A model generated the notes under the pieces. The model was not told the DNA's origin, searched no databases, and was given only the letters and a program-made list of their open reading frames with translations. Position numbers and translations under genes: made by a program. A stretch of 34,155 nucleotides of DNA, taken from Rhodocyclaceae bacterium (GTDB lineage: Bacteria > Pseudomonadota > Gammaproteobacteria > Burkholderiales > Rhodocyclaceae). Shown in pieces: positions 16,487 to 31,520 of the stretch; position 1 is the first letter of the stretch; the number at the start of each line of letters is the position of its first letter. The DNA lies in contig JAUSBB010000019.1 in NCBI GenBank assembly GCA_030652245.1, forward strand, positions 1-34,155. The letters run 5' to 3'.

Positions 16487-17347
16487 TTATTTTTCCGTCT
16501 CGAACACCACCGGCAACAACACCACGAAGTTCCGCCCCTGCAAAGATTCCGGCAGCGCGGCGCGCGTGACCGCCTGACGCAGCATCTCCAGCGCGGCCGC
16601 GTCGAGCACCGCATGACCGCTGGAACGATTCAGATCGACACGGCGGGCCGGCACACCCGTCTCCACCGTGACACGCACTTCGGCCGTGCCAGCCAACCCC
16701 GCCCGCTCCGCCGCGTCCGGATAACGGCGAAAGCGGCGCGCCTCGACCGCCAGCGCCAGGCGAAACTGCCGCAGGCCGGCGGCATGGGCGCCACGTTCAT
16801 TTATCTCCTGCGCCAGGGCTGCCGTGGCCGGGCCCGCCATGTGACGCGGCACGACTTCGCCACCCGCCCCACTGGCTATCGGTGCCTGGGCCTGCTCCGG
16901 CAGGACCGGCATATCAAAAGTCGGCGCTGGCGGGACGGCGTTAGCCGGACCGCCGCGTAAATCGGGGACGGCGTTAGCCGGGAATACCGCTCCCCTCTCC
17001 CCCGGCCCCTCTCCCGCAAGGGGAGAGGGGAGTCGAAGCCCCTCCCCCCGCGCGGGGGAGGGGTTGGGGAGAGGGGGAAATGCGGCAGTCGGCGCACGCT
17101 GCAACACCGGATCGGGCGCGTCGACCGTTGACGGCGCGGGCAGCAACCTGCCCTGCAAAACGCTTGCCGGCGGGACGCTTTGCTCCATTGCACTAAACTG
17201 TGGCAGCAGCCCCAGCAACAGCAGCGCGTGGAACAGCAGCGACAAAACGGCGGGACGGAGCGGAAATCCCCGCAATTCCCAGGCCTGTTCCGGCCGCCGA
17301 GACGAACTTTCCATTGTCACAATACTCTGATAGGTTTTGGGTTCCAT
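16487..17347 (-). CDS. TonB-like energy transducer with repeat-filled linker
   Basis: The protein has a single N-terminal membrane helix (PAVLSLLFHALLLLGLL), a long Pro/Ala-rich periplasmic linker and a C-terminal TonB domain (about the last 90 residues; RRFRRYPDAAERAGLAGTAEVRV, ending in LLPVVFETEK). TonB proteins pass energy from ExbBD to outer-membrane receptors. No exbBD is next to it. Starts at 17347 and 17314 (MESSSRR) are both possible; the TTG at 17359 is unlikely. The linker is odd: residues reading NPSPARGEG and SPLAGEGPGERG are the translation of a palindromic GAGAGGGG-type repeat, followed by [10 protein letters not shown], the translation of the dispersed 24-bp repeat. Both insertions keep the frame, so the gene is probably still functional. 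Confidence 0.85.
   Translation of the reverse strand: MEPKTYQSIVTMESSSRRPEQAWELRGFPLRPAVLSLLFHALLLLGLLPQFSAMEQSVPPASVLQGRLLPAPSTVDAPDPVLQRAPTAAFPPLPNPSPARGEGLRLPSPLAGEGPGERGAVFPANAVPDLRGGPANAVPPAPTFDMPVLPEQAQAPIASGAGGEVVPRHMAGPATAALAQEINERGAHAAGLRQFRLALAVEARRFRRYPDAAERAGLAGTAEVRVTVETGVPARRVDLNRSSGHAVLDAAALEMLRQAVTRAALPESLQGRNFVVLLPVVFETEK
16916..16981 (+). repeat. Dispersed repeat, copy 4, extended form with second half (inside TonB-like gene)
   Basis: A perfect consensus copy (16916-16940) continues as TTAGCCGGACCGCCG and then a second partial unit, GGGGACGGCGTTAGCCGG (16964-16981). Both units end in the small hairpin CGGC-GTTA-GCCG. The frame of the host gene is kept; on the minus strand it reads [10 protein letters not shown]. 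Confidence 0.85.
16991..17077. repeat. GAGAGGGG-type palindromic repeat inside TonB-like gene
   Basis: Two perfect stems stand side by side: CCCCTCTCCC/GGGAGAGGGG (17006-17015, 17021-17030) and CCCCTCCCCC/GGGGGAGGGG (17039-17048, 17054-17063), flanked by further CCCTCTCC and GGGGAGAGGG tracts. This pattern is a well-known intergenic repeat of many proteobacteria. Here it is inside a coding region and in frame. Confidence 0.85.
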
Positions 17348-23005: not shown

Positions 23006-23335
23006 TTAGACGCAACCGGTCGGCTTGGGCATGCCCGCGTAGCGGCAGGCCTGCTTCGCCGGGCCGTAGGGGAACAGGTCGAACAGGTATTTCTTGTCGG
23101 CGTATTCTTCGCCCAGAGCTTCAGGCAGCAGCTTGGTGATCAGGCGCAGGTTGGGCGCCGTGCCGGTTTCGGCGTAGTAATCGCGAATCCAGCTAATGAC
23201 CTGCCAGTGCTTTTCCTGCAGCGCCAACTGATCCTGGCTGGAAAGATAATCCGCAACATCCTCGGACCAGTCATCCAGATTGGCCAGATAGCCTTGCGCG
23301 TCGGTTTCGATGTCTCTGCCATTGACGTTGATCAT
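23006..23335 (-). CDS. dsrC: DsrC sulfur carrier with both redox cysteines
   Basis: The start is the ATG at 23335 (MINVNGRDIETDAQGYLAN), behind GGAGAGGAC; the extra 29 residues in the ORF track are translation of a C-rich leader. The 109-residue protein has DsrC features: WSEDVADYLSSQDQLAL, HWQVISWIRDYYAETG, and the C-terminal arm CRYAGMPKPTGCV. The two Cys are separated by ten residues, as needed to form the intramolecular disulfide or trisulfide of true DsrC; TusE-type proteins have only the last one. In sulfur oxidisers DsrC carries sulfur from DsrEFH to the reverse DsrAB sulfite reductase or interacts with sHdr-type complexes. No other dsr gene is next to it. It seems monocistronic, with its own promoter and terminator. 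Confidence 0.92.
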   Translation of the reverse strand: MINVNGRDIETDAQGYLANLDDWSEDVADYLSSQDQLALQEKHWQVISWIRDYYAETGTAPNLRLITKLLPEALGEEYADKKYLFDLFPYGPAKQACRYAGMPKPTGCV

Positions 23336-23350
23336 TTTTTGTCCTCTCCG

Positions 23351-23386
23351 TGGGGTTGGGGGGGTTGGGGGTGCTGGGGTCGGGGG
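23351..23386 (+). promoter_or_regulatory. G-tract array (G-quadruplex-type motif) in the dsrC leader
   Basis: Five runs of 4-7 G are separated by 2-4 bases (GGGGTTGGGGGGGTTGGGGG, then TGCT, GGGG, TC, GGGGG). This meets the usual G-quadruplex pattern. It lies on the strand opposite to dsrC, between the likely promoter and the ribosome binding site, so the dsrC mRNA leader would be C-rich and the template DNA G-rich. Confidence 0.6.
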
Positions 23387-23411
23387 TGAATACCTGACTA
23401 ACTTGGTGAGA

Positions 23412-23439
23412 ATTATAACCACACGCCCGGCGGAGGCAA
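23412..23439 (-). promoter_or_regulatory. Sigma70-like promoter for dsrC
   Basis: On the minus strand TTGCCT (23434-23439) and a perfect TATAAT (23412-23417) are separated by 16 bp, about 77 bp upstream of the dsrC ATG. This puts the G-tract array in the transcribed leader. Confidence 0.55.
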
Positions 23440-23488
23440 ATAGTAATTGTTGATTAAGTTGATAGCCTATTGCTATGAACGGAATTGC

Positions 23489-31512: not shown

Positions 31513-31520
31513 GAAAACGC

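Follow-up and report, generated by a model that had tools for sequence, protein, structure and literature searches.

In dissimilatory sulfur metabolism, DsrC acts as the central sulfur carrier, and many sulfur bacteria have further DsrC copies. A lone dsrC of a Rhodocyclaceae bacterium raises the question of how such a copy is controlled, and whether the conspicuous array of G-runs in its leader takes part in that control. The gene lies in a stretch of 34,155 nucleotides (the window), which is one contig of the source genome (2.27 Mb, 85% complete), whose closest named relatives are Rhodocyclaceae and Sulfuritalea-type metagenome genomes. An earlier sequence-only reading of the window proposed that the array folds into a quadruplex in the template and so sets the output of dsrC, or else that it is slippage-prone sequence.

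The dsrC locus and its G-run array

The identification of the gene as dsrC holds: the encoded protein matches TIGR03342 and PF04358, and it has both C-terminal cysteines. A VWA-domain (CbbO-like) gene, a CbbQ/NirQ/NorQ-type ATPase gene and aprBA lie in its neighbourhood, and a second DsrC copy, 51% identical, is found on another contig of the source genome (G000:C128). A promoter scan gave a single site in the region, the sigma-70-type TTGCCT-16-TATAAT at 23439-23412, with a score of 10/12. The TATAAT promoter, the ribosome site and the position and strand of the array, as previously described, were all correct on direct reading. The features of the locus are as follows.

23006..23335, minus strand: lone dsrC, 109 aa, with both conserved C-terminal cysteines
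23342..23349, minus strand: strong ribosome-binding site GGAGAGGA, AGAGAGGA-like in nearly all orthologues
23352..23386, plus strand: array of five G-runs, on the template strand and C-rich in the mRNA
23412..23417, minus strand: -10 box TATAAT, from the promoter scan and direct reading
23434..23439, minus strand: -35 box TTGCCT, inside a TATTTGC stretch common to many orthologues

The array sits between the promoter and the ribosome site. Transcription of dsrC, a minus-strand gene, uses the G-rich strand as its template, so that the leader of the mRNA is rich in C. The runs on the plus strand are located at 23352-23355 (4 nt), 23358-23364 (7), 23367-23371 (5), 23376-23379 (4) and 23382-23386 (5), separated by loops of 2, 2, 4 and 2 nt in this order. 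With five runs, the array has the at least four G-runs with short loops that define a potential quadruplex, and its G4Hunter score of 2.72 is the second highest in the window. The window has 2 places with four G4+ runs, whereas 200 first-order Markov simulations gave 0.01 such places on average; this confirms that the five G-runs on the template side, giving the C-rich mRNA leader, are well above chance. In the 2.27-Mb source genome, a four-run pattern with one fixed spacing was found at only 2 loci, and a three-run pattern at a few dozen loci, many of which are a dispersed GGGGTTGGGGAGAGGGG-type repeat. The highest G4Hunter score in the window (2.92) belongs to a region of dense G/C-runs at 16992-17077, which is of the GGGGTTGGGGAGAGGGG type that recurs across the genome and looks like a dispersed intergenic repeat. 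More C-rich stretches with high G4Hunter scores are present at 31520 and 31679.

To see how far the array is kept, 22 orthologous dsrC leaders, the source leader among them, were read and aligned. Only 3 of the 22, namely the source and its close relatives L008 and L009, have at least four G4+ runs separated by short loops, and the quadruplex array is thus not conserved among the orthologous leaders. Relaxed criteria (G3+ runs, loops up to 12) added the leaders L010, L011 and L020, and most other leaders have one to three C-runs of at least 4 adjoining the ribosome site. Whether G-runs are absent upstream of dsrC in relatives, which the sequence-only reading named as one part of the case against it, has a divided answer: short C/G-runs are found in most of them, but the quadruplex-capable array is absent. 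The pair of runs nearest the ribosome site corresponds to the conserved CCCCCAACCC element, and the remaining array is, as judged from the aligned leaders, an expansion limited to the closest relatives.

The proposal that opening of the duplex lets a quadruplex form in the template strand, where it impedes or stops RNA polymerase just past the promoter and so sets dsrC output, can be weighed against these data. The five G4+ runs with loops of 2-4 nt, a score far over the simulation and the retention of four runs in L008 and L009 speak for it, as does a promoter-region quadruplex of Paracoccus denitrificans that alters expression when stabilised by a ligand (PMC5123632). However, the array is confined to the three leaders, similar G-rich repeats are scattered over the source genome, and enhancement by leader quadruplexes has been reported for the non-template strand and for the RNA (PMC11087576), both of which are C-rich here. 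We therefore regard such a device as improbable: the array is foldable by sequence, but it is not the conserved feature of the leader. The case illustrates how an array of G-runs, however striking, can be no more than an ordinary leader element expanded in one lineage.

An IscR-like palindrome at the expected start site

A far more widely conserved feature of the leader, overlooked previously, is a palindrome at the start site that resembles the sites of IscR, the bacterial iron-sulfur-cluster sensor. Two matches were found near the promoter.

23390..23414, plus strand: predicted IscR type-1-like operator ATACCTGACTAACTTGGTGAGAATT, matching the published consensus at 19/25 and ranking first in the 34-kb window
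23446..23470, plus strand: weaker second IscR-like match, 18/25, second best in the window with the matrix described below, upstream of the -35 box

The predicted operator is a 25-bp imperfect palindrome that touches the -10 box and spans the expected transcription start. The IscR type-1 consensus is ATASYYGACTRWWWYAGTCRRSTAT, and the functional-class sites of Pseudomonas aeruginosa iscR match it at 68 and 76% (PMC3899308). The window site, at 76%, equals the higher of these figures, and it is among the weaker ones of the dsrC leaders, having one good half and one degenerate half. All 26 leaders compared with the consensus had their best match in the same register near the -10 box, at 18-22/25 and each with p <= 0.02 against 300 shuffles, these leaders being from related orthologues and so not independent of each other. 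The second match, which is kept only in the closest relatives, may be due to chance.

To avoid circularity, a matrix was built from the iscR promoters of the genus alone. The iscR gene was located in 18 of the 19 genomes of the genus, and its promoters match the type-1 motif at 20-23/25. With this matrix, 20 of the 22 dsrC leaders scored above the best of 200 shuffles, and the dsrC site was the top match in the 34-kb window; the two exceptions, L022 and L024, were not above their shuffles, and in L008 the matrix preferred the upstream match. When a complete relative (G017, 2.74 Mb) was read whole and scanned with a matrix that omitted the G017 iscR, the top sites were those of iscR (42.4), an rpoH-like gene (30.5) and dsrC (24.4). 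In an independent search of the 19 genomes with a degenerate pattern, matches were chiefly in the upstream regions of iscR and dsrC, and the reversed control gave 0 matches. The site was found in 0 of 38 DsrC/TusE genes outside the orthologue group and in 0 of 7 dsr-operon-type paralogues. A corresponding site at aprBA was also considered and rejected, as the matrix gave nothing above 3 nearby.

Some further sites of this kind were observed. After the strong IscR-like site upstream of the rpoH-like sigma factor gene (G017:C1:198639-198663) comes a CIRCE-type (heat-shock) palindrome, TTAGCACTC-N9-GAGTGCTAA, and IscR-like sites are located upstream of a folE2-like gene in two species (G017:C1:1727639 and L116:1501-1522).

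The order of elements in the leader is conserved: TATTTGC at -35, TAtAAT, GACnAAA....GTCAAgTAt, a ACCCCCAACCC-like element, AGAGAGGA and ATG. The gene upstream of dsrC varies among the genomes (cbbO-like, a tRNA in several, and others). The leader stays despite its changing upstream neighbour, indicating that it is kept for its own sake.

As for the protein that would bind the site, IscR is the sole Rrf2-family match in the source genome, with a cysteine-desulfurase-like reading frame following it; because this genome is 85% complete, another regulator may be missing from it. The source IscR has E43, C92, C98, C105 and H108, and thus the three cysteines and the histidine of the cluster ligands. 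Its clade (L106, which is the source iscR, and also L105, L107 and L108) shows C-x5-C-x6-C-x2-H as compared with C-x5-C-x5-C-x2-H, and since the canonical spacing corresponds to C104/H107, the cluster loop of IscR in this clade is longer by one residue, located before the third cysteine. The palindrome might instead be bound by another regulator that shares the IscR motif, and some relatives (G005, G011) do have a second IscR-like protein. Nevertheless, a single Rrf2-family protein in the source genome and a single IscR in most relatives make this rather improbable.

From the position of the palindrome, its conservation and the matrix results, we consider it quite probable that the region serves this lone dsrC as a promoter and leader of its own, under predicted IscR control. 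The arrangement suggests that iron-sulfur supply switches dsrC on and off. By analogy with known type-1 sites (PMC3899308), IscR in its holo form ([2Fe-2S]) would sit on the start site and block RNA polymerase while clusters are plentiful; upon iron shortage, oxidants or raised cluster demand, IscR would lose its cluster and leave, and DsrC would be made. If this is true, the conserved IscR-type operator is a clue to the job of the extra dsrC, namely that it is made when iron-sulfur clusters are short. On the aligned sequences, an IscR-type operator is more probable, and more widely conserved, than the quadruplex.

The C-rich leader downstream of the predicted operator

Between -60 and -12, C makes up 58% and G 12% of the source leader, which is less folded than its own shuffles (z +1.54). 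No Rfam family matched in the window, that is, no known structured RNA leader was found there, and a structured RNA or riboswitch was rejected on the absence of an Rfam match and the weak fold. The C-rich, G-poor composition may serve to keep the ribosome site clear of RNA structure.

A leader of this kind could also load Rho, which would stop transcription when translation is poor. Such Rho-dependent attenuation would be consistent with the C and G contents given above, with the lack of structure and with a strong C-over-G excess in most, though not all, of the relatives. However, this excess in L014, L017, L021, L022, L024 and L027 is no greater than genes ordinarily show, and the conserved C element spans just some 11 nt. 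Attenuation by Rho is thus unlikely.

A strict pattern, CCCCAACCC-N(2-8)-AGAGAGG, searched in 19 genomes, gave matches only at dsrC coordinates. As a leader module used throughout a genome, the C-rich element was rejected, since in G017 it was found upstream of start codons 14 times against a shuffle mean of 14.6. In G017, the start codon of the folE2-like gene is preceded by CCCCAACCCCACGGAGA, as is that of the dsrC in the window; this exact sequence as a shared module was likewise rejected, being without support from enrichment.

The proposal of slippage-prone sequence gained some support from the comparison between species. Among the closest leaders the length of one run varies between 5 and 6 C, and relative to them the source leader contains an additional CCCCAAC-type unit, about 9 nt long; a difference in run length together with an extra unit is as expected of repeat slippage or duplication. 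That slippage causes phase-like variation in leader length would agree with such gains or losses where the genes are about 96% identical. On the other hand, the differences are between species and not inside one population, and the change falls between the transcription start and the ribosome site, where the spacing in relatives already varies. We judge phase-like variation to be highly improbable. With the leader under predicted IscR control, the C-rich element would simply have been lengthened by repeat duplication in the source species, becoming capable of quadruplex formation, which would not be its selected role.

Comparison with known systems

The nasT quadruplex of Paracoccus denitrificans (PMC5123632) is likewise an array of G-runs in front of a gene for inorganic-nutrient metabolism. 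That array, examined in vitro as well as with ligands, is 150 nt upstream of its gene, whereas the dsrC array, a quadruplex candidate by its sequence, is within the leader, on the template strand, and is not kept in most relatives.

The dsrC of the dsr operon in sulfur oxidisers of the Allochromatium vinosum type (PMC7596348) belongs to the same DsrC family, with both cysteines. In contrast, the dsrC of the window is a separate single gene with its own promoter, and the dsr-operon-type copies are without the IscR-like site.

The proposed control is of a known kind, and dsrC as its target was not found in the open literature searched, the coverage of which was incomplete: we found no reports of IscR control of dsrC, and papers with both terms either used an iscR-deleted strain for expression or dealt with tumours, where the letters are shared. 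A wider scheme can be imagined for this group of sulfur-oxidising betaproteobacteria, in which the non-operon DsrC, a dissimilatory-type sulfur carrier, would be in the IscR regulon and tied to the state of iron-sulfur clusters, perhaps donating or buffering sulfur for their repair, and in which a template-strand quadruplex beside the operator would be a second layer of control in the source clade; as a whole, we give this scheme very little likelihood.

Compared with the IscR type-1 promoters (Escherichia coli iscRSUA; Pseudomonas aeruginosa iscR, PMC3899308), the predicted target is a lone dsrC and not a cluster-assembly gene, and one half-site in the window is degenerate. The predicted dsrC operator starts at the -10 box and covers +1, whereas the sites of iscR promoters are located further upstream. 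What the dsrC leader shares with these systems (PMC3899308) is the 25-bp imperfect palindrome placed over the polymerase site, and a canonical-looking IscR encoded in the same genome.
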